Shown piece by piece: positions 12,542 through 34,530 of a stretch of 64,000 bases of DNA; positions within the stretch are counted from its first letter, which is position 1; every line of letters begins with the position of its first letter. The stretch comes from Ignavibacteriota bacterium (GTDB lineage: Bacteria; Bacteroidota; Ignavibacteria; SZUA-365). Under the pieces are notes generated by a model. The model did no database searches, was not told the DNA's origin, and saw only the letters and a list, made by a program, of their open reading frames with translations. A program made the translations under genes and the position numbers. The stretch spans positions 186,001 through 250,000 of the forward strand of contig JACRFB010000040.1 of the NCBI GenBank assembly GCA_016218045.1. Direction: 5' to 3'.

Positions 12542-12564
12542 GCTGGGTCCTGCTCCTTCTTGTT

Positions 12565-13395: not shown

Positions 13396-13473
13396 GATGT
13401 CGCTCCTGAGTGTATAAATGATCTTTCTGTGCTGGTGAATCAACTGGTGACGCAAACGTGTGGATTGAACCGG

Positions 13474-14640: not shown

Positions 14641-14656
14641 GGTTTTCTCCGGGTGC

Positions 14657-15097: not shown

Positions 15098-15103
15098 CCG
15101 GCG

Positions 15104-15445
15104 TCAGACGGTTTCGATCACGGACGCATCGTACGACGGGAGCACGCGCAGACTGTAGTGCAATCCCGTCATTTCGATGGTCTCGTTCACCTGCGGCGTC
15201 GGCGCGACGGCGAAGATCTCCACGTCGGATCCCATTTTCTGACGGGCGAACACCAGCACGCGGATGCCCGCGGAGGCGATGTAGTCGAGCCCGCTCAACA
15301 TGAGAGCGACACGTTTCGCGCCGTGTGTGTGCGCTTCCTCGACCTTGTCGCGGAAGGTTGTGGCGACGCTCGCGTCGAGTTCGCCGGTAAGCGTGATTTT
15401 AGCGATGCCGTTTGCCGTCATCTCGAGTGATGCATCGAAAGCCAT
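15104..15445 (-). CDS. STAS-domain protein (RsbV-like)
   Basis: 113 residues, start MAFDASLEM with AGGAG upstream. The STAS motif reads LMLSGLDYIASAGIRVLV, with the Ser of ASAG in the phosphorylation position. It immediately precedes the RsbW-like kinase gene, making it the most probable direct partner of that kinase. Confidence 0.88.
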   Translation of the reverse strand: MAFDASLEMTANGIAKITLTGELDASVATTFRDKVEEAHTHGAKRVALMLSGLDYIASAGIRVLVFARQKMGSDVEIFAVAPTPQVNETIEMTGLHYSLRVLPSYDASVIETV

Positions 15446-15480
15446 GGAGGAACTCCTGAAATGATATTCTGAATATTGCG

Positions 15481-17655: not shown

Positions 17656-17660
17656 GCGGT

Positions 17661-17993
17661 TCAGGCGAGTGCCGCCTTAGCGGCGTCAAGCGTGTCACAG
17701 ACCGTAAAATGATGCAGAAATCCGGTCATCGACATCGTGTCGCGGATCTCCTCCGACAGGCCCGACAGCACCAGCCGCGCCTTCTGCGCGGTGATCTGCC
17801 TGTACGTCGAAAGAAGCATGCGCAAACCGGCGCTCGACATGTACGGTACACCCGTCATGTCGAGCAGCAGCTTGCCTTCCGCCTTGATGAGCGGGAGAAT
17901 CTTCTCCTGCACTTCCGGCGCCGTCTTGCCGTCGATCTCGCCAAGGATCGTCGCAATGTCGATGCCGCTGTCGCTCGTGATCGTAATGTCCAT
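17661..17993 (-). CDS. STAS-domain protein (RsbV-like)
   Basis: 110 residues, start with GAGGAG 6 nt upstream. STAS signature LLLDMTGVPYMSSAGLRMLLSTY with the SSAG switch Ser. It is wedged between the AGE-fold gene (9 bp) and glgX (5 bp), so it is almost certainly co-transcribed with carbohydrate enzymes, which is unusual for a sigma-regulator antagonist. Confidence 0.88.
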   Translation of the reverse strand: MDITITSDSGIDIATILGEIDGKTAPEVQEKILPLIKAEGKLLLDMTGVPYMSSAGLRMLLSTYRQITAQKARLVLSGLSEEIRDTMSMTGFLHHFTVCDTLDAAKAALA

Positions 17994-18002
17994 GATAACT
18001 CC

Positions 18003-19829
18003 TCAGGAACCGCTGGTGGGGATGACGCGCACTTTGACGCGCAGATCGGTGTCGGAGGCCGGCAGTTTCACTGTCAGGGCCTCGGCGTTGAAATCGGTGT
18101 ACGGCGCGCCGTCGATCGTGACACTCTCGATGCGGATCGACTTCGGCGGAAGGATGTCGGGCGACACACGCAGGATGTTGCGCTTGAATCCGTTCGGCTT
18201 CGGCTTGAAGTGCAGGTCGAGCGGCTTCTTGGTGAGCAGAAGATTCGTGTATGTCTGCGCGAGGTAACACAACTCGAACGAGTGGTATCCGCTCATCGAG
18301 TGGCTGCCCTTGAATCGCTCGGTGCCCATGAGGTAGGGAATGCCGTTTGCAAGCACGTTGAAGAACACCGCGCCATCGTCATGATCAAGGAAGAACGCGT
18401 TGTAGAACGCGCTCGACTCGCGCGAGATTTTCCGGTACTCGTCGCCGCCGAGAACACCCGCGAGAATCAGATAGGCCAGAATGCCCTGCTCCTGCTGCCA
18501 CCAGGCCTTGCGGTCGTGGAAGGCGAATCGGTGCCAATCCTGTCCGGCCTGACGCACACGCTCCATCACATCGTACCAGCCGCCGCGCTGACGGTCGCCG
18601 CCGATCGGAGGCATCACCTCGCCGATCTTGCGCGCGACTTCCTCGTAACTCTGTTTCGGCTCGAGTCCGTACATGCGCAGGAGATTCCACGCGATCTTGA
18701 GGTTGTGTCCCACGACGCCGCGGTTCTGCTGCCACATGTGTGTGCTGTCGTGCGACCAGTCCTCGTAAAACTTCTCCTGCACAAAGGGCGAATTGGCGTA
18801 GTCGGGGAAGTACTGCACGATGGTGTCGAACGTGTATTCGAGCATCTTTGCGTAGCGCTCCTCGCCGGTCGCAAGGTACAGGTTGATGAGGTACGCAGGC
18901 GCGTGATCACCCACCGAGTTCCAGTTCTTCTTGCCCTTGTTGGGTCCGAGCGCTTCGCTGCGCGGATCAAGTGTGATCGGATCGAGATGCGAGAAATACC
19001 CGCCCTTGTGACGGTCGAGATAAAAACGGTCGAAGAGATCCACCGTCATCTCCGCGTCCTGCAGAATGCGCGGATCACCCGTGATACGGTACGTCTGAAT
19101 CGGACCCGCGAGCGCGTAAATCTGCTCGTAGGCGGGGATGGCGTCGAAATCGTCACCGAACTCGGAGGCGAACACCTTGTCCTCGCGCGAGCCGTGTACG
19201 TCGATGCCGTGATACCAGTACACGATCTTCTCGTCCTGATCGTAGAAGCGCATGTGCTCGCGCAGATACTCCGTGCCCTTCTCGGCGCCGACGAGGTACT
19301 CGTCCTTGCCCGTAAGCAGATATGCGGACGCAAAACCGTAGACGAGACGCGAGATCGTGTCGGTCTCCTGTCGGTAATTGTCGGCTTCCTTCTCGCCGTT
19401 CAGCGTGATGGTCGTGCGGTAGTTCTTGTAGTCAACCGTATTCGTGCCGAACTGCGCCTTGAGATAAAAACGGCCGAGTGAATCGATCTGATTCACCCAC
19501 CAGTCCTGCTTCTCGAATCCGTACTCCTCGATCTTGCGGCCGAGGAACATGAGGAACTGCGCCTCGAACGAGTTGCCGCCCGCTTCGGGATAGTAGGTGC
19601 CGTAGGTGAAAACGAAACGGCCCGGCTCGAGCATGTCGCGCATCTGGCCAGTGCAATCCTGATACGGCTCCTCGAGATTGCGGACGAGCTGCGCGTAGGT
19701 GTTGCTCTTGAACTTGATCACGTAGCTGTCGCCGCCCGGTGTCGTGATGGTGTATGTGTCCGCCGCGCGATCGAAGCTGGACACGTATCCGGCGATGGTG
19801 TCAGAGAAGGTGAAATGTATGTCGTTCAC
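18003..19829 (-). CDS. AGE-family epimerase/isomerase-like (alpha/alpha)6-barrel protein
   Basis: 608 residues from GTG 19829, which has AGGAGG 7 nt upstream; the reading frame continues open upstream into the VOC gene without a good start. Motifs WQQNRGVVGHNLKIAWNLLRMYG, WWQQEQGILAYLILAGV and GYHSFELCYLAQTY are those of N-acylglucosamine 2-epimerase/cellobiose epimerase-type barrels. The protein is longer than a typical 390-420-residue AGE enzyme, with about 90 extra residues at the N-terminus and a beta-rich C-terminal domain (about 530-608). Sugar substrate unknown. It starts the carbohydrate/signalling half of the gene run. Confidence 0.75.
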   Translation of the reverse strand: MNDIHFTFSDTIAGYVSSFDRAADTYTITTPGGDSYVIKFKSNTYAQLVRNLEEPYQDCTGQMRDMLEPGRFVFTYGTYYPEAGGNSFEAQFLMFLGRKIEEYGFEKQDWWVNQIDSLGRFYLKAQFGTNTVDYKNYRTTITLNGEKEADNYRQETDTISRLVYGFASAYLLTGKDEYLVGAEKGTEYLREHMRFYDQDEKIVYWYHGIDVHGSREDKVFASEFGDDFDAIPAYEQIYALAGPIQTYRITGDPRILQDAEMTVDLFDRFYLDRHKGGYFSHLDPITLDPRSEALGPNKGKKNWNSVGDHAPAYLINLYLATGEERYAKMLEYTFDTIVQYFPDYANSPFVQEKFYEDWSHDSTHMWQQNRGVVGHNLKIAWNLLRMYGLEPKQSYEEVARKIGEVMPPIGGDRQRGGWYDVMERVRQAGQDWHRFAFHDRKAWWQQEQGILAYLILAGVLGGDEYRKISRESSAFYNAFFLDHDDGAVFFNVLANGIPYLMGTERFKGSHSMSGYHSFELCYLAQTYTNLLLTKKPLDLHFKPKPNGFKRNILRVSPDILPPKSIRIESVTIDGAPYTDFNAEALTVKLPASDTDLRVKVRVIPTSGS

Positions 19830-19888
19830 GAAATATCCTCCTGGATGAAAGAATGTGTCGATCGATCGCGTGCGGGCGGACGCTGCGC

Positions 19889-20320
19889 TTACATGTCGAG
19901 AGGGGGCGGATTCAGTTCGTCCACGTACCCCTGGCTGATTTCCACGATGTTGCCTTCCGGATCCGCGACCCACACGGTCTTCCAACCCGGGATAAACGCG
20001 CCGAAGTCGAAGGGACCGTGGGTGATCCGCGCGTCCGCGCCCATCTCCGCAAGCTTCGCGTCGATGTCGTCGACCTTGAAGGCGATGTGCCTCCATTCGG
20101 GATACCACGGACCGTCCTGCACCTTCGGGCCGACTGGCGACTCCTCCTTCGCGGAGAATAGTTCAAGATAGGCGCCGCCGGACTTGATGAAGACGATGGC
20201 CTCGTCGCCGAGCGGTATGTAGCGCGCGCGCACGAAGCCGAAATGTTTGGTGTACCAGCGCTCGAGCGCGAGCGGATCCTTGCAGGCGACGGCCATGTGA
20301 TGGAACGCGAGGTCGGCCAT
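19889..20320 (-). CDS. VOC family (glyoxalase/dioxygenase-fold) protein
   Basis: 143 residues with the paired beta-alpha-beta-beta-beta modules of the vicinal oxygen chelate superfamily: FHHMAVACKDPLALERWYTKHFGF at the start, AYLELFSA mid-protein, HIAFKVDDIDA, and WVADPEGNIVEISQ at the end. The metal ligands are probably His8 (HHMAV), Glu of YLELF, His of HIAF and Glu of NIVEI. It starts 1 bp after the stop of the small DJ-1 gene, so they are translationally linked. Confidence 0.85.
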   Translation of the reverse strand: MADLAFHHMAVACKDPLALERWYTKHFGFVRARYIPLGDEAIVFIKSGGAYLELFSAKEESPVGPKVQDGPWYPEWRHIAFKVDDIDAKLAEMGADARITHGPFDFGAFIPGWKTVWVADPEGNIVEISQGYVDELNPPPLDM

Positions 20321-20321
20321 G

Positions 20322-20897
20322 TCATCGCCCTCCGTCAGCAAGCATGTCGATGATGCGGCGCGCGAACACGTTGCAGTGCCCGCCCGTGCGGCCGGTGACG
20401 AGATCGCCATCCACCACCACATCCTCGTTTACGTACTCGGCGCCCATGTTGCGCGCATCGCCGATGAGGTTGTTGTGCACGACGACGCGGCGCCCGCGCA
20501 CGAGGTCGGGACGCGGCGCCACCAGCCACATGCCGTGGCAGATGATGCCCTTGAGTATCGTCGGCTCGGCGAACGCCCGCGCGAGGAACTCGGTTGCTGG
20601 CGGGATTTTTGTGACGTCCTCGGTGTAACGCAGCCGGTCGGAGACCATGCCCGCGGGCACGATGATCGCGGAGAAGCTGCGCAAGGTGGCGTCGTCCATG
20701 CCCTCGAAGCTCTCGCGGCATTCGAAGGGCGTCCGGAATTCATGTCCGCTGAAGGTGATCGCCTGCTGGCCCCACAAGCGTGTGAAGAAATGCACGTCGG
20801 CGCCCTCTTCGGCGAAGCGGAAACGGTAATACCAGATTTCCGGATCGTAAAAGTCGCTTTCTATGAAGATGCCGATCTTTTTTCCTGCGAGTCTCAT
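20322..20897 (-). CDS. DJ-1/PfpI family protein (smaller of two)
   Basis: 191 residues, start MRLAGKKIGIFIESDFYDPE with GGAAGGA upstream. Flavodoxin-like fold with the nucleophile elbow KGIICHGMWLVAP (Cys-His) and the conserved acidic residue in IGIFIESDFYDPEIWYY. Family members are glyoxalase III, protease/chaperone or isonitrile hydratase enzymes. A second member heads the same gene run at 27763. Confidence 0.85.
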   Translation of the reverse strand: MRLAGKKIGIFIESDFYDPEIWYYRFRFAEEGADVHFFTRLWGQQAITFSGHEFRTPFECRESFEGMDDATLRSFSAIIVPAGMVSDRLRYTEDVTKIPPATEFLARAFAEPTILKGIICHGMWLVAPRPDLVRGRRVVVHNNLIGDARNMGAEYVNEDVVVDGDLVTGRTGGHCNVFARRIIDMLADGGR

Positions 20898-20923
20898 GTG
20901 TGTCCTTCCTGCGTGGTCGTGTG

Positions 20924-21316
20924 TCAGGCCAGCGAACCGTCGGGATGCTGCACCATGCCCGCGAAATGAATGGCGATTTTTCCGTCGCGGAGTACCCAAC
21001 TGTCGGCGAAGCGCATCTGCAACTGCTGGCCGCCCGCCGTCATGGTGATCTGCTCGGTTATCATGAGCGTCTCGGGATTTTCGGTTTCGCCCCAGAACAC
21101 AATCTCGGTCTCGAGACCCTCGATGCCGAGAATGCCCTGCATGTGCTCACGCAGGCCGTCGCGGCCGCGGTAATACTTCGGCGTCTTCATGAACGAGCTG
21201 ATCAGCAGCGCGTCGTCGGTGTACTGATCGAGAAGCGCCTCGATGTTCTTGTCAAGAATCAACTGTATGTGCTCGCGGTACATCGCGCCGAGCTTGGTGT
21301 TCGGTACATTCTTCAT
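20924..21316 (-). CDS. SnoaL/NTF2-like protein, single domain
   Basis: 130 residues, no signal peptide. The pattern NIEALLDQYTDDALLIS ... YRGRDGLREHMQGIL ... WVLRDGKIAIHFAGM is the alpha+beta cone fold of SnoaL-like cyclases/isomerases and NTF2 proteins. No certain catalytic residues. It lies 22 bp downstream of the GMC oxidoreductase gene and 26 bp upstream of the DJ-1 gene; one of five SnoaL-like genes in this run. Confidence 0.8.
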   Translation of the reverse strand: MKNVPNTKLGAMYREHIQLILDKNIEALLDQYTDDALLISSFMKTPKYYRGRDGLREHMQGILGIEGLETEIVFWGETENPETLMITEQITMTAGGQQLQMRFADSWVLRDGKIAIHFAGMVQHPDGSLA

Positions 21317-21338
21317 GGTGTGGTTCCGGTGATGTATG

Positions 21339-22874
21339 TCAATTCGTATTGTCGTGGAGAATCATGTCGGCCGCTTTCTCGCCGATCATGAAGCAGCCCG
21401 CGACGGTGTTGCCGCTCGGTACTGTCGGCATGACGGAGGCGTCGGCAACACGCAAGCCGGCAACGCCGTACACGCGGAGCCGCGGATCGACCACCGCCAT
21501 CGCGTCGCGGCCGATTTTGCATGTCCCTGCGGGGTGCCACAGAGTTGAACTCTGCGTGCGGATGTACCCGTCCAAGTCCCCGTCACCCGGAGCAAGCTCG
21601 CCACCGTTGACGCCCGCAAAGGCCTTCGAGTTGGCCATATCGCGGATGAGCGCCACCGCCTTGCGGAAGACCTCCACGTCGGCGTCGCGCTGCAGATAGT
21701 TGGGATTGATGACGGGTTTGTCGAAGGGATTCGACGAGCGCAGCGATACGCTTCCGATGCTGAACGGCTGCACGAGAATCGGAAGGAAAATCGCCACGGG
21801 TCCACCAAGATCCGGCAGTATCGGAGCCAGCGGTTTCGGAATCGCGGGAGTAAAATTGAGCTGCAGATCGGGGACAGCCGCGGTCATGCCCTCGCGTGTT
21901 TTGACGAACAACACGTTCCCCGTGAGCAGCGTGGTCCGCGGTGTGTCGACCTTCGAGCGGAAGATGACCGGCAACTGCATGTGGTCCTGCAGATTCTTGC
22001 CGACACCCGGCAGATCGGCCACCACGGGAATGCCCAGCGCGCGCAGTTCATCGGCGGGTCCGATGCCCGAGAGCAGCAGCAGCTTCGGCGACAGGAACGC
22101 ACCCGCGCTCACGACAATCTCGCGCGCGGCTCTCGCGGTCTGTGTCGCACCGTCCTTGCTGTATTCGACTGCCACCGCGCGTCCGTTTTCGATGAGTAGA
22201 CGTGTGGCTTCGGCGCCGGTGGTGATTGTGAGATTCGTGCGCGACCGCACGGGATCGAGGAAGGCCGTGGCAGTGCTGGCGCGCGTGCCGTCGTCGTTGA
22301 TGTGGAATTGCAGTAGACCCGCGCCGTGTTCCTGGCGCGCGCCGTTATAGTCCCAATGCGGACCGTCGAATCCGACTTCCACACCCGCGTTCATGAATGC
22401 GTCGGAACGCATGTCGTTGTCGGGGCACACGCGGATGCGGAGCGGTCCGCCCGCGCCGTGGTACTTCGACGGACCGTCTTCGAAGTCTTCCGACTTCTTG
22501 AAGTACGGCAGCACGTCGTCGTATCCCCAGCCGTCGGCGCCCATCATGTTCCACTGATCGAAGTTCCCGCGGTTGCCGCGCACGTACATCATCGCGTTGA
22601 TCGATGTGCTGCCGCCGAGCACCTTGCCCTGATTGATCGTGATCGCGCGGTCCGCAAGAGCGGGCTGCGATTCCGTCCCGAGCGTCCAGTCGATCTCCGA
22701 GCCCCAGAGGCGCACGAAGCCGCCCGGATCCTTGATGTCGGCTGCGCTGTCGGGAACTCCTGCCTCGAGCAGGAGAACGTGGTTGCCCGCCGCCGCGCTG
22801 AGCCGGTTGGCGACAACGGCGCCCGATGCGCCGCTGCCGATCACGATGTAATCAAACAAGTCTGTATCTGCCAT
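21339..22874 (-). CDS. GMC-family FAD oxidoreductase (choline dehydrogenase-like)
   Basis: 511 residues. The dinucleotide fold DYIVIGSGASGAVVANRLS (residues 8-26), the GMC signature VLGGSTSINAMMYVRG, and the catalytic His/Asn in WHPAGTCKIG and VPSGNTVAGCFMIGEKAADMI are all present. Such flavoenzymes oxidise primary or secondary alcohols using FAD. It has no export signal. Its position between SnoaL-like genes suggests that it acts on the same metabolite as the ThDP enzyme, which is inference. Confidence 0.92.
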   Translation of the reverse strand: MADTDLFDYIVIGSGASGAVVANRLSAAAGNHVLLLEAGVPDSAADIKDPGGFVRLWGSEIDWTLGTESQPALADRAITINQGKVLGGSTSINAMMYVRGNRGNFDQWNMMGADGWGYDDVLPYFKKSEDFEDGPSKYHGAGGPLRIRVCPDNDMRSDAFMNAGVEVGFDGPHWDYNGARQEHGAGLLQFHINDDGTRASTATAFLDPVRSRTNLTITTGAEATRLLIENGRAVAVEYSKDGATQTARAAREIVVSAGAFLSPKLLLLSGIGPADELRALGIPVVADLPGVGKNLQDHMQLPVIFRSKVDTPRTTLLTGNVLFVKTREGMTAAVPDLQLNFTPAIPKPLAPILPDLGGPVAIFLPILVQPFSIGSVSLRSSNPFDKPVINPNYLQRDADVEVFRKAVALIRDMANSKAFAGVNGGELAPGDGDLDGYIRTQSSTLWHPAGTCKIGRDAMAVVDPRLRVYGVAGLRVADASVMPTVPSGNTVAGCFMIGEKAADMILHDNTN

Positions 22875-22912
22875 TCTCTGAGATCCTCGCTGCGCGGCAT
22901 GGCCGCTGATTC

Positions 22913-23824
22913 TTATTTCTCTTTGAGTTGGTTGATGAGGCCGGTGTCGTCCCAGTTGGCCCATGCGTGGATGAGCTTGAAGTCCTTCAACTGGTAGAGG
23001 ACGAGGCCCTTCCACACGACTTTTTTGCCGGTCGGGGCAATGCCGATGAACTCGCCGGTGTGTGTGCCGGGCGCCTCGAAGCGCACGAGCACCTTGTCGT
23101 TCGACGCGATCATGTCCGCAATCTGGATATCCAGATCCGGAAATGCTTTATACAGCATGTCCATCTGCGCGTTGAGTCCCGCCGCTCCCGCAATGGCCTC
23201 GGGCACCGCGCTGCGGTCGATCTTGAACGTCGGTTCGGCGAACTTCGAGAACTGCGAGAAGTCGCGCTTGCCGAGAATGGCAGCGGCGTATTCGCGCACA
23301 ACCTGCTTGTTCTTCTCGACGATCTCGGGCGGGGAAACAAAACCGAGCTGCCGCAGCATGCTGAACACGTCGTTCTGCACACGAATCTCAGCGATTTTGC
23401 CGTCCTTGAACTTGTAATAGCTCATACCCTGAATGGCGACGGGCTTTCCCGACGCGGGTACACCGCGCCACGCGCCGATGTTTTTTGTGGTGGACATCTG
23501 CCAATACGCCACGGCGCCGCCTTCATCCGCGACAATATCGGTCGGAACGTAGGTCAGGTTTTCAAAAATGGTGCGGTTGCGACGCACGAGGGCCATGAAA
23601 TCCTCGAGGCCGTTCACCGTTGTAAAGGCAAGGATGAACTTGAAATCGGGCTGAAGGATTTTATTCGCAACGTCCGCGTTACCCTTGGTCCAGACTTCGG
23701 ACAGAAACTGGCCTGCCATCGCACGATACGATTCGGCCTTGCTTCCGACCTGCGCCTCGGCGCTGCGCGGAGCAAGCGTGCTCAGCACAATCACAGCGGC
23801 CGCGATCAGATATATTTTTTTCAC
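22913..23824 (-). CDS. Exported tandem SnoaL-like (ester cyclase) protein
   Basis: 303 residues from GTG 23824 (AAAGGA 6 nt upstream). A signal peptide (to about residue 25, RSAEAQ) is followed by two SnoaL-like domains, about 30-160 and 165-300. Repeated signatures are DGKIAEIRVQNDVFSMLRQLGFV after domain 1 and LIHAWANWDDTGLINQL after domain 2, like the [W/D]..LMQQLG end of ester cyclases. It is exported, unlike the cytoplasmic tandem protein encoded two genes upstream. Confidence 0.8.
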   Translation of the reverse strand: MKKIYLIAAAVIVLSTLAPRSAEAQVGSKAESYRAMAGQFLSEVWTKGNADVANKILQPDFKFILAFTTVNGLEDFMALVRRNRTIFENLTYVPTDIVADEGGAVAYWQMSTTKNIGAWRGVPASGKPVAIQGMSYYKFKDGKIAEIRVQNDVFSMLRQLGFVSPPEIVEKNKQVVREYAAAILGKRDFSQFSKFAEPTFKIDRSAVPEAIAGAAGLNAQMDMLYKAFPDLDIQIADMIASNDKVLVRFEAPGTHTGEFIGIAPTGKKVVWKGLVLYQLKDFKLIHAWANWDDTGLINQLKEK

Positions 23825-23869
23825 GTCGATTCCTTTCTATGGGATGATGCCTGCTCGGAGGAAGGGAAT

Positions 23870-23892
23870 GCGCCCCGGAAGTACCGGGGCGC
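23870..23892 (-). other. Intergenic hairpin inside the gene run
   Basis: GCGCCCCGG, loop AAGTA, CCGGGGCGC: a perfect 9-bp stem in the 79-bp gap between two SnoaL-like genes. No U-tract follows, so full termination is not expected. Confidence 0.5.
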
Positions 23893-23903
23893 CCCGCTGC
23901 ATG

Positions 23904-24440
23904 TTATTTCTTCGGACCGCCCGGAGGAGGAACGAGACCGAGCTGACGTGCGAGCGCCATCTCGTCCACGTTCGACCAGCGCTCCATCACCTTGCCGTTG
24001 GCAATACGGACGATTGTTGTGCCGCCGAACTCGAGCGTCTTGCCCGATGCGGGTACACCGAACAGCGGTGTGCCGGTGTGTGTGCCCTTCAGTGTCCAGC
24101 GGTGGACAACCTTGTCGCCTTCGGCGATCTCATCGTGCACGGTGAGCTTGACATCGGGAATCGCGGCGCGGAACATGCCGATGATCGACTTGAAGCTCGC
24201 GGGACCCTTCTCGGGGGACTTGCCGGGAATGGTCGAATGATCGAGCGCATCTGCGGGAATCATCTCGTCGAGCACGGCGAAATCGCCACGGTCCCAGCCC
24301 GCGTGGAACAGCTTCGTTGCCGCGGCCTTGTTCTTTGCGATCTGTTCGGGATCGTACTTCTGCGCAAACCCGCTGTTCAGGGAAACGAGCAGTCCGAGCG
24401 CGAATGCAGCAAGTGTGACACGGCGCATTGTATGGTTCAT
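23904..24440 (-). CDS. Exported single-domain SnoaL-like (ester cyclase) protein
   Basis: 178 residues. Signal peptide MNHTMRRVTLAAFALGLLVSLNSGFAQ, then one SnoaL-like domain with LKGTHTGTPLFGVPASGKTLEF and ending MERWSNVDEMALARQLGLVP, a textbook ester-cyclase end. A second in-frame ATG (24428) would also work. The 127-bp gap upstream is the longest in the run and could hold an internal start or processing site. Confidence 0.82.
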   Translation of the reverse strand: MNHTMRRVTLAAFALGLLVSLNSGFAQKYDPEQIAKNKAAATKLFHAGWDRGDFAVLDEMIPADALDHSTIPGKSPEKGPASFKSIIGMFRAAIPDVKLTVHDEIAEGDKVVHRWTLKGTHTGTPLFGVPASGKTLEFGGTTIVRIANGKVMERWSNVDEMALARQLGLVPPPGGPKK

Positions 24441-24567
24441 TTTCTTGTCCACTGTTTTGTGAGTGAGAAGGAAAGTATTGTACTGTTCAATTAGTGGTCT
24501 CCAGAAGCACGGCGGCATTTGCTTCCGAGAAAGGCAATGCGCCGCGTACCGTCTGGACGCTCAAACA

Positions 24568-25437
24568 TTATCCCATCATGCCGAGTTGCTGCATGAGACC
24601 GAAGTCGTTTTCGTTCACATGCACCGAGACGATCTTGCCGCCGCGGATCGTGAAAATGTCGATGCCCCAATCCTTGATCGCGTGACCTGTCGCGGGCATG
24701 CCGAGGAACTCGCCCTTGTGCGTGCCTTCGATCGACCAGCGCGATGCGACCTTCTCGCCCTCGCAGGTGTGACGATGCGAAGTGAACTTGATGTCGGGGA
24801 ACGCGTTGCGCAGGTAGCTCACGAATCCTTTGAATGCCTCGTGACCCACGATGGGCGCGGGTTGTGTCGGGATGATGAATGCAAAACTCGGATCGAGGAT
24901 TTCCTCCACGACCTCGAGCTTGCCCTGGCTCATGATCTCGTTGAAATAGCGCAGAGCGAGCTGTATGTTCTGCTCTCCGCTTGTCGGCGGCTCGGGCGCG
25001 GGAGGCGCGGGAATGACGCCAAGCTGGAAGAGCAATCCCAGCGTGTCTTCGTGACCGATCGATTCGACGATCTTTCCGTTCTTGATGGTGTGCCAGGTCA
25101 TGCCGTCGATCTCAAAGGCCTGACCCGTCGGGGGCAGGTCGCCCTTGATCGTAACGAGGGCGCCGCCTGTATGAGCACCGCCGCCGCGCCAGCGCGTGAC
25201 AACCCAGTCGTCACCGGCAACCATGTCGGCAGGGAAGATGTAGAAATCGGGAAACGCGTCGTGCAACATCTTGGTGAGGCCGAGAAATCCGTCCGGTCCC
25301 TTGAACGGCTCGGGATGTGTGGGAAGCGTGAAAACAAAATCGTCGGAAAGTATCTCGTGCGCTGTCTGCGCATTCTGGCCGTTCAGGATTTCGAGGAAGT
25401 ACCGGCGTGCAAGCTGCTTGTTCGGATTCGGTGTCAT
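24568..25437 (-). CDS. Cytoplasmic tandem SnoaL-like (ester cyclase) protein
   Basis: 289 residues from the ATG with AGGAG upstream (25437). Two SnoaL-like domains (about 5-140 and 152-289) joined by a proline-rich linker (PAPPAPEPPTSG). Both domains show the (G)THxGxxLGxPxTGxxxxxxGxD core and end in DTLGLLFQLGVIP and NDFGLMQQLGMMG. An upstream open frame to 25860 overlaps the next gene and is not the real start. Confidence 0.85.
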   Translation of the reverse strand: MTPNPNKQLARRYFLEILNGQNAQTAHEILSDDFVFTLPTHPEPFKGPDGFLGLTKMLHDAFPDFYIFPADMVAGDDWVVTRWRGGGAHTGGALVTIKGDLPPTGQAFEIDGMTWHTIKNGKIVESIGHEDTLGLLFQLGVIPAPPAPEPPTSGEQNIQLALRYFNEIMSQGKLEVVEEILDPSFAFIIPTQPAPIVGHEAFKGFVSYLRNAFPDIKFTSHRHTCEGEKVASRWSIEGTHKGEFLGMPATGHAIKDWGIDIFTIRGGKIVSVHVNENDFGLMQQLGMMG

Positions 25438-25460
25438 ATCGCGAAGTCTCCTGTCGGGAT

Positions 25461-25910
25461 TTAGAGGCGGGCAAAGCCCGGTGCGTATTTGAAGGGTTCG
25501 ACGGTGGCGTTGTACGAAACGATCTCGAGACCGAAGGCGTTGCGTGTCGTGGCGCGCACAGTCCAGCGCTGTGTCGCATCCATCGAGACACGCTTGCTCT
25601 TTGCCGCGGGCGCTTCCCACCAACTGGCCTGCCATCCCACGACAATGTCGAGTACGGCTTCGTCGCCCTTGATGTCGGCCACGACCGACTGCACGTAGTG
25701 ATTCTCGTCGAAGAACAGATTGGTGACACGGTCGTACCAGACCTTGAACGACGCGAAGTCCTTGATGTCGCCGTCGGGAAACTGCACGTTCAAGCCCGTC
25801 TCGGCGAGCATCGGATACACCTGTTCGATGGGAATGTGGAAGTCGAGCGCCTGATACCACGCCGCCACAAAGCGGTTGATCTGCTCGACGGTGATTGCTG
25901 TATTACTCAT
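25461..25910 (-). CDS. SnoaL/NTF2-like protein, single domain
   Basis: 149 residues, AGAGGA before the ATG. NTF2-like fold with FVAAWYQALDFHIPIEQVYPML and FKVWYDRVTNLFF near the start and a strand ending QRWTVRATTRNAFGLEIVSYNATVEPF. More diverged than the ester-cyclase-type members. Separated by 67 bp from the ThDP enzyme gene and 23 bp from the tandem gene. Confidence 0.75.
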   Translation of the reverse strand: MSNTAITVEQINRFVAAWYQALDFHIPIEQVYPMLAETGLNVQFPDGDIKDFASFKVWYDRVTNLFFDENHYVQSVVADIKGDEAVLDIVVGWQASWWEAPAAKSKRVSMDATQRWTVRATTRNAFGLEIVSYNATVEPFKYAPGFARL

Positions 25911-25977
25911 GAAGTCGGTTCCTCTATGTTTCGGTTTACTCTGATGATGCTATTCATGACCCGGCGCGGCTGGCGCT

Positions 25978-27669
25978 TCAGCTCTTGGTCGAACCCGGCA
26001 CGGTGTTCGACACAACAACATCGAGCAGGTATGGACCGTCGGTCGCGAGCATCTCCGCGATGGCCGGACCCACTTCCGCGGGCGTCGCGACACGGCGCGC
26101 GGGCACGCCCATCGCATGCGCCATCGCTGCGAAATCCACGACGGGACCCTGCAGATCGAAGCACTCGGGGAAGGTGTGCTCCTCGATTCCGCGCTCTTTC
26201 CAGTACTCCATGATGTTCAGCTTGAGCAGCATGTAGCTCTGGTTGTTGCAGACGATGAACTTGGCGCCGATCTTGTGCCGCACTGCGGTCCACAGCGCCT
26301 GTATCGTGTACATGCAGCCGCCGTCGCCGGAAAAACCGAGCACGGTTTTTTCGGGATGCGCGAGCTTCAGGCCCAGCGCGCCGGGAAAACCGACGCCGAG
26401 GGAGCCGCCGCGCGTCTGGAAAAAATGGCCGGGCAGATGCGGGTGCAGATAGCGCTCGAGCGCGGGACTCGACGTCAGCGCCTCGTCGAAAATGACCGCG
26501 TCGTCGGGCAGCGCATGCGCCAGCTCCGACATGAAACGCGAGATATCCAGCGGCGTGCGGTCCGCGACCGTCGCGTCATGCGCGAGCGCAGTCGCGAGCG
26601 CGTCGTGTTTTGCCTTCTCCGCGACGCCGATTCGTGCCCGCGCGGCGGACTTCTGCTCCGCGTTCATGCGCGCCGCAAGCGACGCGGTGATCGCTGCGAG
26701 TGTGGGCTTCGGATCCGCGACGATACCGAGGTCCACACGATGATTCTTTGCGATCTCGTATGCGTTGAGATCGACGTGTACGATTTTTGCATCCGACGCG
26801 AACACGCCGTCGAGTGCGGGAAACACTTCGGGAAATATGTATGTGCCCGCGATCAGAACCGCGTCGGCGCGCGAGGTGATCGGGCTGCTGTGTGTGCCGA
26901 ACATGTGTCCGAGCGCGCCCTTGTACAGGGGATGTGTGAAGGGGATGTTGACCTCGGATGCATCGGCGCCCCACACGTCGGCGCCGAGCGTCTCGGCAAT
27001 CGTGCGCAGTTCGTCGTGCGCTCCTGCGTAAGCGATGCCGTCGCCCATGATGATGATGGGCCGCGAGGCGCCCGCCAGCATCGCCGCGGCCTGGTCGATC
27101 ACGTCGGCCGAAGGTGTGACGCGGGAGACGGGAATGACGGTCTTTTCAACGCGCTCTTCCGAGATGGCGTCGAGCACATCCATCGGAAGCGCGACAAAGA
27201 CGGGACCCATGGGCGGTGTTGCCGCAATCTTGATCGCGCGGCGCACAACGCGGAGCAGCGAGGAGGGATGCACAACACGTGTGGACCACTTCGTGACCGG
27301 CCGCGCCATGGCGACAAGGTCCGCGGCCATCTGCGCGTCGGTTGCGTCGTACTGTGTTCCGGCTTCCCCCGCAATCACGACCAGCGGCGCATGACCGCGG
27401 TAGGCCTGATACATCATGCCGATGCCGTTGCCGAGTCCCACGCCGCTGTGCAACTGCACAAGCGTGGGCTTTTTCGTGGAGCGCGCGTAGGCGTCGGCCA
27501 TGGCCACCGCGATCGTCTCCTGCAGCGTGGTGATGTATTGCAATCCGGGATACTTCTCCAGCGCATCGAGGAATCCCTGCTCCACGGTGCCCGGATTACC
27601 GAACATGTATGTCATGCCGTCGGCGAGGAACTGCTCGAGTATCGCGTATCGCCCTGTCTTGCCGCTCAT
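25978..27669 (-). CDS. ThDP-dependent decarboxylase/carboligase (benzoylformate-decarboxylase-like)
   Basis: 563 residues with the three ThDP-enzyme domains. The cofactor motif is GFSGDGGCMYTIQAL...FIVCNNQSY. The proposed activating Glu51 lies in TTLQETIAVAMADAYA, and His74 in LVQLHSGVGLGNG corresponds to the active-site His70 of benzoylformate decarboxylase (BFDC). The BFDC Ser26 position is Thr28 (GNPGTVEQ). I see no His at the position of BFDC His281; the corresponding stretch reads GTYIFPEVFPALDG. Those changes suggest another substrate or carboligation. Start at 27669 follows AGAAAGG; the in-frame extension upstream runs through the hairpin at 27719. Second gene of the run. Confidence 0.88.
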   Translation of the reverse strand: MSGKTGRYAILEQFLADGMTYMFGNPGTVEQGFLDALEKYPGLQYITTLQETIAVAMADAYARSTKKPTLVQLHSGVGLGNGIGMMYQAYRGHAPLVVIAGEAGTQYDATDAQMAADLVAMARPVTKWSTRVVHPSSLLRVVRRAIKIAATPPMGPVFVALPMDVLDAISEERVEKTVIPVSRVTPSADVIDQAAAMLAGASRPIIIMGDGIAYAGAHDELRTIAETLGADVWGADASEVNIPFTHPLYKGALGHMFGTHSSPITSRADAVLIAGTYIFPEVFPALDGVFASDAKIVHVDLNAYEIAKNHRVDLGIVADPKPTLAAITASLAARMNAEQKSAARARIGVAEKAKHDALATALAHDATVADRTPLDISRFMSELAHALPDDAVIFDEALTSSPALERYLHPHLPGHFFQTRGGSLGVGFPGALGLKLAHPEKTVLGFSGDGGCMYTIQALWTAVRHKIGAKFIVCNNQSYMLLKLNIMEYWKERGIEEHTFPECFDLQGPVVDFAAMAHAMGVPARRVATPAEVGPAIAEMLATDGPYLLDVVVSNTVPGSTKS

Positions 27670-27718
27670 GGAAAACCTTTCTTTCAGAAGTTCGTGTGTA
27701 TCGTGCTCAGAATGCCGG

Positions 27719-27753
27719 TTGCCGTCCGCGCCCGTCGCGGGCGCGGACGGCAA
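27719..27753 (-). other. 16-bp perfect stem-loop between the first two genes of the run
   Basis: TTGCCGTCCGCGCCCG, a 3-nt loop, then CGGGCGCGGACGGCAA, 10 bp after the DJ-1 stop codon and 50 bp before the ThDP-enzyme start. No U-tract follows on the transcribed strand, so an attenuator, RNase barrier or 3'-end stabiliser is more likely than a full terminator. Confidence 0.7.
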
Positions 27754-27762
27754 CGGGGCGTG

Positions 27763-28602
27763 TTACCAGCCGTAGCGTTTCAAACCCTTCTCGAGAACCG
27801 CCACAAGCAGTTCACCCGTCGCTACCGACGATTCCGTCGAGCGGCCTGTGATGAAGGGATAGTCGACAAGCGCCGACACGTTGCGCCCGACGCCGCTGTG
27901 GAAGCCGCCGTCCGGTCCCGTTGCGTCGCGCAGGATGTACTCCAGCGTGTAAGGCGGCGGTCCCATGTTGAAATCCACCCACTCCTGCTTCACCGCATTG
28001 TAGAAACCGGTGCCGTCGTGGTAATCGTATTCGATCGGATGGCCCGTGACGTGTTTGCCCCAGATGATGCTGCGGCGCACATACCAGTCGCGCGCAAAGG
28101 CAAGAACTGCAACGCCGTAACATTCGGCCGCGATCGGCTTGCCCGCGTTGTAGAACCCGAGGATCACATCGTGCAGACGCTGGTTGTTCACCATGTCGAC
28201 GATGGGACCGCTGCCGCCGACAAGCAGCAGCGCGTCGTACTTCGCAAGTTCCGACTGTGCCTTGTCGACACCGTCGTTGTAGGCCTCCATCGCGCGCAGA
28301 TAATTGGTCGCGCTGTAATACGGACGCTCGGGGAACCAGTCCTTCAGACTGATCGGATTCGTCAGACGATCCGACTCGTCCACTTCCTTCGTCCGCTTCG
28401 CCATGTATTCGCTCGTCACAGATTTTCCGAGGGGCGGATCCATGAACGTCGGGTCCATGCTCACGGGAAGCGCGCGCGGGCGCTTGCCCGTAGGCGTCAT
28501 GAAGTCGACCTGATAGCCGGCTTTGTCCATCGCGTCCAACGGACCGATGAGTTCTTCGCCCCAATACCCGTACTCTGAAAGCACGGTGAGAATTTTTTTC
28601 AT
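27763..28602 (-). CDS. DJ-1/PfpI family protein (larger, amidotransferase-like)
   Basis: 279 residues, ATG with AGGAG upstream. Flavodoxin-like class I glutamine-amidotransferase fold; nucleophile elbow AAECYGVAVLAF with Cys, nearby KILTVLSEYGYWGEEL holding the family's conserved Glu. Longer than the 170-190-residue core family, with an insert around residues 60-110 and a C-terminal extension GPDGGFHSGVGRN. First gene of the 18-gene run, 240 nt after the predicted transcription start. The 5' leader is open in frame for 58 codons but carries no ribosome site at its ATG. Confidence 0.85.
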   Translation of the reverse strand: MKKILTVLSEYGYWGEELIGPLDAMDKAGYQVDFMTPTGKRPRALPVSMDPTFMDPPLGKSVTSEYMAKRTKEVDESDRLTNPISLKDWFPERPYYSATNYLRAMEAYNDGVDKAQSELAKYDALLLVGGSGPIVDMVNNQRLHDVILGFYNAGKPIAAECYGVAVLAFARDWYVRRSIIWGKHVTGHPIEYDYHDGTGFYNAVKQEWVDFNMGPPPYTLEYILRDATGPDGGFHSGVGRNVSALVDYPFITGRSTESSVATGELLVAVLEKGLKRYGW

Positions 28603-28825
28603 GCGATGTGACTCCTGTGTGATGATCAATGATGGACGATGCTTGGAAGCCGCGTGGCGACGCTGATACGGCAGCCGGCCATCGGCATGGTCGCGAACGG
28701 TGCACATGATGCGGACATCATCCGACAGGTCGCGTGGGCAGTGCTCCGTGCGTCCGCGCACGTGGCAGTGCACCATGGAAAGTGCGTTTTATGGGCGTAA
28801 CCGCCCGGGTATAGCGCGTGTGTTC

Positions 28826-28843
28826 TTACGTAAAGTGACGTAA
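28826..28843. promoter_or_regulatory. Palindrome 2 at the predicted transcription start
   Basis: TTACGT, 6 bp, ACGTAA: perfect 6-bp arms sitting on the expected +1 of the promoter at 28848-28876. It resembles a dimeric repressor site. Confidence 0.55.
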
Positions 28844-28866
28844 TTCGAATATATCATATCCGAATT
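28842..28866. promoter_or_regulatory. 25-bp palindrome overlapping the -10 (operator candidate)
   Basis: Symmetric pattern AATTCG-N-ATAT-N3-ATAT-N-CGAATT; 10 of 11 arm positions pair. It covers the -10 and part of the spacer of the promoter below, so a bound dimer would block polymerase. No TetR, MarR or LysR-type regulator gene is in the window. Confidence 0.65.
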
Positions 28867-28876
28867 TGCCTGTCAA
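28848..28876 (-). promoter_or_regulatory. Consensus promoter of the 18-gene run
   Basis: TTGACA, 17-bp spacer, TATATT: the best -35/-10 pair seen in the window. The -35 lies 13 bp after the stop codon of the haem-sensor kinase gene. It drives a ~240-nt leader before the first DJ-1 gene. Confidence 0.75.
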
Positions 28877-28889
28877 GCAAGGTCTCGAT

Positions 28890-30728
28890 TTATTTTGTGT
28901 GAGTTTCGTCTTCCGCCGGTGCGGGACTGAGCTGCGTGCGGATGGGAAGGCGGATGATAAACTCGGTGAACTCGCCGATGGCGGATTCGACGCGGATGGT
29001 CCCGAAGTGCCGCTTGATCACTTCGTAACTGAGCGACAGGCCGAGACCGGTGCCCTCGCCCGCGGGTTTTGTTGTGAAGAATGGTTCGAAGATTTTTTCC
29101 CGAAGCTCATCCGGGATGCCCGGACCGTTGTCGCGAATGCGTATTTCGATGTCGTCGTCGTACCGCTTGGTCGAAACCGACACGTCGGGGGCGTACTCCT
29201 CGCCGAGCCAGAGTCGCTTCTGATGTGTGGCATACATGCCGTTCTTGAGAATGTTCAGGAACACGCGGCTCACATCCTGCGGCGCGATCAGAATCAACGG
29301 CAGTCCTTCCTCGTAGGAGGCGTGCAGCGACACGTTGAAATCCTGCATCTGCGCCCGCATGCCGTGATACGAGAGATCGACGTACTCCTTCAACAGGGCG
29401 TTCACATCGGTGGGCATAAGCTCCTCCGAAATGCCCCGCGAGTGCATCAGCATGCCGCGGATGATGCTGTCCGCGCGCTGCCCGTGCTCGTTGATCTTCT
29501 CCAGATTTTCGTCGATATCGTTGTTAATGTCGCGGAGATCGTCGACGGTGGCCGGTGTAAACTGCGTTTCCGACTGCGAAAGTATGTCGCGCACCTCGGC
29601 GGTCAGCTTGCGCGCGAGTTTGGCGAAGTTCGTCACAAAGTTCAGGGGATTCTTAATTTCGTGCGATATGGCGGCGGTCAGTTCACCGAGCGACGCGAGC
29701 TTCTCCTGCACGATGAGCTGATCCTGTGCGGCCTTGAGTTTGTCGAGTGTGGTCTGCAGCGTTTCGAGAGTGGAACTCAGCTCCGCGTTCTTGTCCGACA
29801 GTTCGCGCGTCCTTTCATCCACCTTTGTCTCGAGCGTGCGATTCGTTTCCTCGAGCTGCATTTCCGCGCGGGTGCGTTCGGCGATCTGCACCTGTAATTC
29901 CTCGTTGATGACCCGCTGCTTCTCGGCAAGGTCCTGGGTTTGCGCCAGCGACCGTCGCATGCCGCCGATCGCAACCCACAACACGCCGAGTCCGAGCAGC
30001 GTGATCGTCATCATGATGAGGAACGACTCCAGCAGGCCGCTCTTTATCTCGCCGAGCTGTTTCTCGAGCGGGATGGTGATCTCCTGCACGCCGCGCACGT
30101 CGCCGACTTTCCAGTCCTTCTTCGGCGAATCGGGATGCGTGTTGTGACAGGATACACAGGCCTTTTCCATCAGCATCGGACTCGCGTACCGGAGCGACAA
30201 CACACCGTTCATTTCCTCAAATCGCGAAAAGGCCTTCGTGCCTGTGCGCCGCAATTCATACAATGCTGCCCGCTCGTAATCGTCGCGCGGACCGCCCTCC
30301 TTCACGCGCCAGGGGAACGGGTAGTCGCTGAATACGCGGATGCCGTAACCCTGTTCCGTCGCGCTCAGGCGCTTGCTGAGATCGATGCTCATCGTGGCGG
30401 GAATCGGCAGCGCGCGTGGATCGCGCAGGTAATCATGTGTCACCGGCACACCGTTCAGCTTGACACGCGGCAACAGCTCCTCGGCATAGAAGGTGCGGAA
30501 TTCGCCGAGAGTGCGCGCGTACACGTCCGCGCTCTCGAGCGATACCGATTCCTTGATCTTCATCGAGAACCGTTCGAGGTGCACGAGAATCGCGGCCATT
30601 CCCACAAAGAGGAGGAGGCCGATCATCGCGATCGGATGACGCTGAAGCAGACGGATCAACGCATCACGCGGACCGCGTTCCCGGGGATTCGTGTCTGCCG
30701 GCGTGTCTGAGACTGTATCGTGATCCAT
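28890..30728 (-). CDS. Haem-c (DUF3365) sensor histidine kinase
   Basis: 612 residues from ATG 30728. Membrane segment 33-51, periplasmic DUF3365-like domain with the c-type haem attachment motif CVSCH at 191-195, second membrane segment about 235-256, a coiled coil (260-345), HisKA with phospho-accepting His356 in [11 protein letters not shown], and HATPase ([23 protein letters not shown]). Such Tll0287-like domains sense redox, NO or similar ligands through haem. No response regulator is adjacent. The cluster promoter starts 13 bp after its stop codon. Confidence 0.92.
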
Positions 30729-30870
30729 TGCCTGCTGCTGCTGTGTGGGTAGCCGACCGCCCTGCAAAACATCCACGCTCCTCGGAGCGTTGTGTATCAC
30801 GAGGCGGGAAGGGTGTGAAAACACGCGCCATGCGCGTGCCTTCGCGAATTGGAAGTACGTAGACGCCGTG

Positions 30871-30900
30871 AAAGTACATCGAAAGTGTAATACGATCCAA
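30871..30900 (-). promoter_or_regulatory. Candidate promoter of the haem-sensor kinase gene
   Basis: TTGGAT, 18-bp spacer, TACTTT; leader of about 136 nt before ATG 30728. The -35 matches that of the promoter at 2457. Confidence 0.45.
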
Positions 30901-31003
30901 CACCTCCGAATACAGTCGCGTTCCCGGGAATCCTCGGTCCACGCTCGATGTTGGAACATTATCACCCGGAATGCCACTTTAAAGCAGTCTCGTCGGTTAT
31001 ACT

Positions 31004-31917: not shown

Positions 31918-34530
31918 TCATCCTTCCTGTCCCACCGCGGATTCTTCGGCCGGCCGGACGCCGTCCTCCTTGGTGAAACGTATCACAAACATCGCGGATT
32001 GGCCCGAAGCAGATTCCAGGTCGATGGTCGCGCCGTGCGCGACGGCTATGTCGTGCGCAAGCGACAGTCCCAAACCGGTGCCCACACCCGCGGCCTTGGT
32101 CGTGAAGAACGGCTGGAAAATGCGCCCGCGGATGTCGTCCGGAATGCCGGGACCGTTGTCGCTGATGTGCACCACCGCGCCTTCCGCCGTCATCTCCGAG
32201 CGAACCGTCAGCGCCGGGTGATCGATCGCGCCGCTGTGTGCGTACTCGGCCGAGGCCTGCAGGCCGTTGAGCATGACATTGATGAAAAGACGCAGCAGAT
32301 CCGGCCGCACTGCATCGACGGACCCGGCCGCGTCATCCAGTTCGAACGTGACGACCGGTTCGGCGTCCGGCGCCGATTCGCGGAGCTGCAAGGTGGCCAT
32401 GTGCGCCGCCTGGCGCAGAAACTCGTTGATGTCGGTGGGCTTGCGCGCCTCGTCCTCACCGCGCGAGTGCTGCATCATGTTTGTGACAATCGCATCGACA
32501 CGCCCGCCATGCGCGCGAATACGCGAAACACTCTCGCGCAGTTCGCCGACAAGCTCCGCTGCCTCTCCCGCGCGCGCCGTATCTCCCTGCGCGGCATCCC
32601 GCAGCGCCTCGTCCAGATCGTCGAGCAGGCGCGCCGAGCCCGATGCAAAATTATTGATGAAATTGAGCGGGTTCTTGATCTCGTGCGCGATGCCCGCTGT
32701 GAGCTGGCCGAGCGAGGCGAGTTTCTCCTGCTGCACAAGCTGCTTCTGCGCCGCTTCCAGTTTCGCCGTCCTCTCGCGCACAAGTTCCTCGAGGTTGTCG
32801 GCATAGGCGCGAAGCTGCTGCTGTGCGTCGCGCAACGAATGAGTCATCCTGTTGAAACTGGCGGACACATGGCCGATCTCGTCACGGATGACGACGGGCG
32901 TCCATGCGTCGAGGCGGCCGTGGTCAACGGATTCGACCGCGTACAGCAGCGCTTCGAGCGGCGCGATGAGGCCGCTGCGGTAAAAGCGCGGGAACACCAG
33001 GATGACAAACAGCGCGGTGCCCACCAGCATCCACGCGATCGGGAGATGTTTCCCGTGCAGGAGTGCGAGGAACGTTTCATGGGTGTCGATGCGAAGGCGC
33101 GTACCCGCGGCAAGTACAAAGGGCGCGTCCGCGTCCGCGCGTCGTGTCTCACGTTCGGTTGTGTCGCCGTCCTGCGCGACGATCACGCCAGGTGCGTTGA
33201 TGGTGTCGTAGCGGTACTCGAAGCGTCCGTCGCGGTAGAGGACCAGGCGGAAACTGCTCCGTGCCATTGTTCCGTAGAATTGCAACCGCGACCACGTGAT
33301 CACCACACTGTCGGCGGCGCGCAAAATGCTGATCTCGCGCCGCTGCCCCTTGTCGGCATCCATCGCATATGGGGCGAGTATGGGCGCCGGCTCGCGCGCG
33401 AGGAAGTCGCCGATATGATTGGGCACGAGTGTTGCGGCTTCGCGACCGAAGACGGCATACCCGTATAGCGACACATGGACGCTGTCGTGCGTCGTGCCGA
33501 AGAGCGGGAACGGAAAACCGATCGGCACGGCCGCATAGGTCGCGCGTCCCATCTCGAGCGGCTCACCGGCCGGACTTGCGGCGGCACGTTGCGCCGGTCG
33601 CACCTGATACGCGCCCCCATCCAGGGGTGTGAACCGCAGTACAGGGGCGGGGGGAGACGACACGCGGTCGTCGTCCGCGATCTCGTGCTCAGGCACAAGT
33701 GCGAGCGGAAGCAGCGACAACACCATGAAGACGGCCATCAGTGTGAGTCCGATCAGTTTCACCTGGAAGGTCGACGACTCGGGGCCATGTAGAAGATACA
33801 CGATCACAAATCCGCCGCTGTACAGCAGCAGGCACACGACAATCACTATCACGTTCACGGTGCTCGAGTACAATCCCGCGTCGCGCAGCATCGACGAGGC
33901 CGATACAAAGAGGATCAACAGAAGAAACACGCTGAACGACACGCAGGCCGATGCCCGGTGGCTGCGCAGCTTCTCGGCGCTCGCCTGCACCGCCGCGCTG
34001 TCCACGGGCAGCGCAAAGCGCGTGTCGGTGCCGGCATCCGACTCAAGCCCCCCTCCAAGAATCATCCGCCGCTTGCGGAGGAACACTGTCACAATGACCG
34101 CGTATTGCACGACCGCGAGATACCCCACGGCCTGCAGCGGCAGGTCGTAGCGTGCCCCGCGGCTCAGAAGTTCCACGGCGCTCCATCCGAGGAAGCCCGC
34201 GGCGACGAGACCCGATGCCGTGACGACTACACGCTTCTCGGTCGGATAAATATCGGCGAGATACTCGTAGGCAAACCAGAGCGCCGTGGTGCAGAACACC
34301 AGCGCCATGCTGTATATCAGCGGATTGTACGCGTACGAATGGGGGGAGAACGCCGATGTGAGCATCAGCTCAAGACCGCTGAACACCATCGCCGCGGCCA
34401 TGTTCGCGGCAAGAGCGGTGGTTGCCCGCGACTTCCCGCGCGCCAGCAGCAAATAGGCGACGATTATCGCCATGAACAGGGTGCACGCGAAATATGCAAT
34501 CGAGATGGATCGGAAATACAGTGGTGGCAT
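31918..34530 (-). CDS. Histidine kinase with 7-8 TM region and large extracytoplasmic beta domain
   Basis: 870 residues. The N-terminus (about 10-280) has seven to eight hydrophobic segments, like 7TM-type membrane sensors. Residues 295-465 form a periplasmic beta-rich domain with IGFPFPLFGTTHDSVHVSLYGYAVFG, a motif found in secreted Ig-like/nidogen-like domains. A further TM (500-515) and HAMP-like segment lead to HisKA with His616 ([11 protein letters not shown]) and HATPase ([23 protein letters not shown]). No receiver protein is adjacent. The kinase core is closely related to that of the haem-sensor kinase. Confidence 0.88.
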   Translation of the reverse strand: MPPLYFRSISIAYFACTLFMAIIVAYLLLARGKSRATTALAANMAAAMVFSGLELMLTSAFSPHSYAYNPLIYSMALVFCTTALWFAYEYLADIYPTEKRVVVTASGLVAAGFLGWSAVELLSRGARYDLPLQAVGYLAVVQYAVIVTVFLRKRRMILGGGLESDAGTDTRFALPVDSAAVQASAEKLRSHRASACVSFSVFLLLILFVSASSMLRDAGLYSSTVNVIVIVVCLLLYSGGFVIVYLLHGPESSTFQVKLIGLTLMAVFMVLSLLPLALVPEHEIADDDRVSSPPAPVLRFTPLDGGAYQVRPAQRAAASPAGEPLEMGRATYAAVPIGFPFPLFGTTHDSVHVSLYGYAVFGREAATLVPNHIGDFLAREPAPILAPYAMDADKGQRREISILRAADSVVITWSRLQFYGTMARSSFRLVLYRDGRFEYRYDTINAPGVIVAQDGDTTERETRRADADAPFVLAAGTRLRIDTHETFLALLHGKHLPIAWMLVGTALFVILVFPRFYRSGLIAPLEALLYAVESVDHGRLDAWTPVVIRDEIGHVSASFNRMTHSLRDAQQQLRAYADNLEELVRERTAKLEAAQKQLVQQEKLASLGQLTAGIAHEIKNPLNFINNFASGSARLLDDLDEALRDAAQGDTARAGEAAELVGELRESVSRIRAHGGRVDAIVTNMMQHSRGEDEARKPTDINEFLRQAAHMATLQLRESAPDAEPVVTFELDDAAGSVDAVRPDLLRLFINVMLNGLQASAEYAHSGAIDHPALTVRSEMTAEGAVVHISDNGPGIPDDIRGRIFQPFFTTKAAGVGTGLGLSLAHDIAVAHGATIDLESASGQSAMFVIRFTKEDGVRPAEESAVGQEG

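Follow-up and report, generated by a model that had tools for sequence, protein, structure and literature searches.

Genes of the locus

The window (the whole stretch of DNA that was analysed, 64,000 nucleotides) holds a run of minus-strand genes that begins at 28602 and extends to 12215, about 16 kb. From the common strand and the spacing we infer that the run (12215–28602) is a single transcript. Its genes are as follows:

27763–28602, minus strand: first gene, ThiJ/PfpI-like (DJ-1 superfamily), 279 aa, assigned with Pfam
25978–27753, minus strand: thiamine-diphosphate enzyme (benzoylformate decarboxylase/acetolactate synthase-like)
20924–25910, minus strand: NTF2/SnoaL-like proteins and a GMC oxidoreductase
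18003–20999, minus strand: DJ-1/PfpI, glyoxalase/VOC and GlcNAc 2-epimerase-like genes
17661–17993, minus strand: STAS anti-anti-sigma-like protein (slr1856-like)
15481–17655, minus strand: GlgX-type isoamylase (slr1857-like)
15104–15442, minus strand: second STAS protein (slr1859-like)
14657–15097, minus strand: RsbW/SpoIIAB-like anti-sigma kinase, HATPase_c_2 (slr1861-like)
13474–14640, minus strand: receiver-SpoIIE phosphatase (IcfG-like)
12215–13455, minus strand: metallo-beta-lactamase-fold protein and third STAS protein, last genes of the run

Genes for STAS proteins, an anti-sigma kinase, a SpoIIE phosphatase, GlgX and a GlcNAc 2-epimerase lie together on one strand. Judged by this content, the operon is an extended relative of the cyanobacterial icfG cluster, and its second half matches slr1852–slr1862. 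The icfG cluster of Synechocystis PCC 6803 shares the GlcNAc 2-epimerase, STAS, GlgX, STAS, SpoIIE phosphatase and anti-sigma kinase genes (PMC8670252, PMC12329169), whereas the operon described here is longer and adds the thiamine-diphosphate enzyme, the SnoaL/NTF2 repeats, the GMC oxidoreductase and the receiver domain of the phosphatase. In Synechocystis the operon acts in carbon and glucose regulation and contains an Rsb/Spo-like kinase–phosphatase pair (PMC12329169, PMC8670252); the action of this kinase and phosphatase on STAS proteins is known biochemically for Synechocystis only (PMC12329169). Related clusters were found in Nostoc, Streptomyces, Chloroploca, Opitutaceae and others. Clusters with a large part of the same gene set are spread over many phyla; the icfG type ranges over cyanobacteria, Streptomyces, Clostridia and Chloroflexota as well as the window organism's own phylum. 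No close relative of the first gene was found in the other compared genomes of the organism's own family. Multiple consecutive SnoaL/NTF2-like domains are present in the one operon between 20924 and 25910, some of them duplicated inside one protein.

Promoter and leader

The region ahead of the first gene contains the following features:

28871–28876, minus strand: −35 hexamer TTGACA (promoter scan; pattern counts across the genome)
28848–28853, minus strand: −10 hexamer TATATT with TG extension, TGATATATT (promoter scan)
about 28841, minus strand: predicted transcription start, an A 7 nt past the −10 (from promoter geometry)
28603–28841, minus strand: untranslated leader of about 239 nt, from the predicted start to the ATG
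28842–28866, no strand: palindrome 1, AATTCGgATATgatATATtCGAATT, probable repressor operator over spacer and −10 (symmetry, shuffles, likeness to ArsR operators)
28826–28843, no strand: palindrome 2, TTACGT-N6-ACGTAA, which spans the predicted start and is at chance level (shuffles, genome count)

An earlier note on this DNA had described a near-consensus promoter wrapped in two palindromes at the head of the gene run. The letters are present where it placed them; the strand, which it did not give, is minus, and reads TTGACA-GGCAAATTCGGATATGA-TATATT-CGAATTACGTCACTTTACGTAA. The promoter (28876–28848; TTGACA-17-TATATT, with TGaTATATT at the −10) carries 11 of the 12 consensus bases at 17-bp spacing, was the top sigma-70-like match in the 19 kb scanned, and does head the long same-strand run. 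Across the 4.77-Mb genome the pattern TTGACA-N16-18-TATNNT was counted 28 times, against twice for the reversed pattern, which indicates a promoter class in use by the host organism. By hexamers and spacing it is a real-looking promoter of the sigma-70 housekeeping type.

Translation of the first gene starts at the ATG at 28602, preceded by a Shine–Dalgarno sequence AGGAG at 28612–28616, and the orthologs begin at the same residue. Use of the in-frame ATG at 28776 would add 58 residues, an extension that is absent from the orthologs. An RNA element in the leader was rejected, since the interval 28603–28841 gave no match to an Rfam family and folded no better than its shuffles (z-score +0.5).

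Symmetry and copy number of the two palindromes

In palindrome 1, 10 of 11 arm positions pair, with one mismatch. An inverted repeat of at least 10/11 arose in 0.3–0.4% of dinucleotide shuffles of the local intergenic DNA (P 0.003–0.004), a repeat of equal score around the promoter was obtained with P about 0.01–0.02, and with the −35 and −10 hexamers held fixed in the shuffles the value for palindrome 1 was about 2%. The −10 lies inside it, as had been noted, at a position where a repressor would block RNA polymerase. A palindromic operator is supported by this combination of above-chance symmetry and overlap with the −10.

Palindrome 2 is perfect (six of six pairs across six bases), and the predicted start at about 28841 does lie under it, as the earlier note had it; its symmetry, in contrast, is at chance level, a perfect 6-bp repeat being present in 14–19% of local dinucleotide shuffles (P 0.14–0.19). 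At one mismatch it occurs at three sites in the genome against five for the reversed control. It was rejected as a regulon site for want of any genome-wide excess, and is taken to be incidental, with no function needed. The reading of the layout as two dimer sites is not borne out: since palindrome 1 beats chance and palindrome 2 does not, one operator is supported rather than two, and no second above-chance dimer site covers the start.

That the symmetry might act as nucleic-acid structure, as a DNA cruciform or an mRNA 5′ hairpin rather than a protein site, is very improbable. Palindrome 2 would give the transcript a 5′-terminal hairpin of 4 bp, but palindrome 1, being upstream of the predicted start, would not be transcribed, and the folding and Rfam results for the leader argue against such a structure.

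The earlier note had proposed a search for further copies of either palindrome. Only one copy of palindrome 1 exists in the 4.77-Mb genome when up to 2 mismatches in 20 are allowed, and one more site appears at 3; its core pattern (up to 2 mismatches) has one additional site, and its outer arms alone gave 31 matches, all of which, except palindrome 1 and one other, are coding. No second intergenic site supporting a palindrome 1 regulon was found in the strict, core-only or outer-arms-only genome searches, and palindrome 1 was rejected as a regulon site, being single-copy with further matches nearly all in coding sequence. A phylum-wide search with its pattern returned just scattered 2-mismatch matches in other genomes, and no plasmid or viral copies of the promoter region were found.

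Palindromes at other strong promoters of the genome

The principal rival to an operator is a symmetry that arose by chance in a strong, AT-rich promoter, which would be constitutive or otherwise controlled, for instance by the operon's own sigma-factor partner switch. This account is unlikely, if by some way the strongest of the alternatives. In its favour are the single site, the lack of a neighbouring regulator, the STAS/anti-sigma/SpoIIE set that the operon itself encodes, and the lack of conservation described below. Against it stand the shuffle values of palindrome 1 (P 0.003–0.02) and a genome-wide excess of such symmetry; the promoter, moreover, belongs to the common housekeeping type and not to a separate sigma class.

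The excess was seen among the 28 near-consensus promoters. Five of them, that of palindrome 1 included, have within 60 bp an inverted repeat scoring at least as high as palindrome 1, where shuffling leads one to expect 0.18–0.22 such promoters. Palindromes at strong promoters are on this count a real feature of the genome, and a chance (false-positive) share among them of about 5–10% is implied. All five repeats are positioned across or downstream of the −10, where repressors sit, and two are recognisable operators. One is a CIRCE element, TAGCACTC-N9-GAGTGCTA, immediately 3′ of a TTGACA-TATATT promoter before groES (L111, G000:C10:105265). This site for HrcA resembles palindrome 1 as a palindrome at the same kind of promoter in the same genome, but CIRCE is a conserved element of many genomes and palindrome 1 a single-copy site. 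The other is the arsR promoter of a complete arsenic operon, ArsR-ACR3-ArsM-ArsC with arsR first (L116/L186, G000:C18:65427-68573), in which the −10 lies under the operator-like repeats CGTATAT-GT-ATATTCG and ATATTCG-N6-CGAATAT.

At L124 (G000:C37:28535) a perfect 13-bp inverted repeat, GTATTTTTACTCA-N6-TGAGTAAAAATAC, was observed over a near-consensus promoter, with an extra copy of TTTTTACTCA alongside; the protein encoded downstream has 398 aa and begins in the manner of an ATPase (GARQVGKTTL). At L113 (G000:C14:58680) a symmetric element, ATGTGAAAAATTTTCACAT, lies shortly 3′ of a TTGACA-TATATT promoter.

Conservation in orthologous clusters

The closest ortholog examined (G455, locus L136) belongs to another family of the same order, and its first gene is 76% identical. 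At the same position it has a promoter, TTGACA-18-TACATT, followed by a leader of roughly 200 nt, and its spacer retains the 8-mer AAATTCGG (P 0.003 for a shared 8-mer). The symmetry is absent from it, the second half of the palindrome not being retained. In 1.4 Mb of related loci palindrome 1 gave six matches at 5 mismatches, against five for the control. The earlier note had made conservation upstream of orthologous clusters a test of its proposal, and in the clusters examined, of which this is the closest, the palindrome is not conserved. As operators diverge fast and the closest ortholog comes from another family, the result weakens the operator claim and does not refute it.

Palindromes in a genome of the same class and another family (G025; for example L102) were rejected as operators: its 26 AATTCAGATATCNGATATCTGAATT-like sites have the appearance of 7-bp repeat arrays, and some sit at contig ends.

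Candidate regulators

The absence of a regulator from the window, which the earlier note had stated, holds for the window proteins to which Pfam was applied: none was recognised as a DNA-binding regulator, whether of the TetR, MarR or another type. In the upstream ORFs of 16 orthologous loci, judged by eye, no regulator was evident beside the clusters.

The earlier note had suggested a tightly inducible operon under a TetR/MarR-type repressor. In this account two dimers of a repressor of that or another family would occupy both palindromes. The layout of a promoter with two symmetric elements fits this, and the length of the palindrome suits a TetR dimer. Palindrome 2 at chance level speaks against the second dimer. 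TetR genes usually autoregulate, and yet none of the three in the genome has a copy of palindrome 1, even at 3 mismatches in 20. TetR/MarR control is not supported by this result or by the Pfam scan of window proteins, the nearest look-alikes of palindrome 1 being ArsR operators, and a two-dimer repressor of any family is improbable.

Two histidine kinases are encoded directly upstream on the minus strand (28890–30977 and 31918–34530), one of them with a Tll0287-like sensor domain. Binding of the promoter by a response regulator that serves these two orphan kinases, or by a regulator in wide use whose consensus is loose, is a still less probable explanation. Sites of response regulators are usually direct repeats upstream of the −35 and not palindromes over the −10. 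The scanned window proteins include no DNA-binding response regulator for the pair, and the closest ortholog has no kinase within 1.5 kb.

The comparison with ArsR operators was made as follows. With the hexamers masked, the arsR promoter (TTGACAGCGCAACATCGTATATG-TATATTCG) was the nearest of the other 27 near-consensus promoters to the TTGACAGGCAAATTCGGATATGA-TATATTCG of palindrome 1. The two scored 10, the next promoter scored 7, and they were the best of 378 pairs; the shuffle P was 0.003, a modest value when uncorrected for the 27 comparisons. The pattern CGNATAT-N2/3-ATATNCG occurs three times in the stretches covered by the core-motif and ArsR scan (1.94 Mb, 41% of the genome), namely at the arsR promoter, at palindrome 1 and at one coding site. 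Measured against composition-matched palindromes as a control, palindrome 1 showed likeness to two ArsR sites: the operator at the genome's own arsR (P 0.001) and, in Pseudomonas putida, the ArsR1 operator CATATTCGAATAGTCATATATTCGGA at Pars1 (P 0.0015), which is known from footprinting and overlaps its −10 (PMC7994332); no resemblance was found to CIRCE or the two other palindromes (P 0.27–0.99). This likeness stems in part from the −10 sequence, which all of the compared operators cover. The TGAA...TTCA half-sites of the textbook SmtB/ArsR operator are, by inspection, absent from palindrome 1, and Pars1 departs from them too.

ArsR/CadC operators in general were rejected as a match: of ten more distant promoters of this type on plasmids, one reached P 0.02 against palindrome 1. 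As most of the plasmid operators are unlike it, the likeness is limited to a subset comprising the genome's own ArsR and ArsR1 of P. putida. A phmmer search across the 314 kb of the contig turned up no ArsR gene near the operon; elsewhere in the genome, ArsR proteins are encoded at C18:65469–65834 and by a gene that ends at C18:34780.

The ArsR1 and ArsR2 operators of P. putida are partly palindromic, AT-rich and 25–26 bp long, with TTCGAATA...ATATTCG-type halves over a sigma-70 −10, and repress through blockage of the −10 (PMC7994332). They differ from palindrome 1 by one base in half-site spacing; moreover, the P. putida operon begins with arsR and binding there has been footprinted, whereas palindrome 1 has no adjacent arsR. 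The genome's own arsR promoter (C18:65427, L116) shares TTGACA-17-TATATT and has CGNATAT-N2-ATATTCG over the −10, the core of palindrome 1 having N3 instead. It carries an additional perfect repeat, ATATTCG-N6-CGAATAT, downstream and has almost no leader, in contrast to the 239-nt leader at palindrome 1, which serves other genes.

Palindrome 1 is best explained as the operator of a repressor, with ArsR/SmtB the most likely type, given its resemblance to proven and predicted ArsR sites over a −10. The assignment to ArsR is a lead with moderate support, not a statement of membership.

Proposed mechanism and significance

The icfG-type operon of roughly 16 kb would be driven from the minus strand by a housekeeping promoter of the sigma-70 type. 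Palindrome 1 would be the operator of a dimeric repressor, which when bound would cover the spacer and the −10 and exclude RNA polymerase, and from which an effector would release it. The repressor would be encoded elsewhere in the genome and would most likely belong to the ArsR/SmtB family. The operon's STAS, anti-sigma kinase and SpoIIE proteins may form a separate layer of control, probably post-translational, as in cyanobacterial icfG. Taken as a whole, with palindrome 2 incidental, we hold this reading to be slightly short of an even chance. The earlier observation was sound in half its parts, and its interpretation is partly supported: right in kind, but unsupported in regulator class and in the claim of two sites.

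A further step, that an ArsR/SmtB sensor, perhaps the organism's own arsenite-sensing ArsR, controls an icfG-type carbon and partner-switching operon in trans, is doubtful.

A repressor–operator layout is in itself ordinary; what is unusual is to find an ArsR-like operator at an operon of the icfG type. Little was found in the literature searched on transcriptional control of icfG-type clusters, and the promoter region has no known counterpart at icfG of Synechocystis. A single operator at an icfG-type promoter, together with a candidate regulator family that can be named, would offer a handle on what switches the cluster on. If ArsR control in trans were true, it would tie metal or thiol stress to the control of glycogen and carbon.
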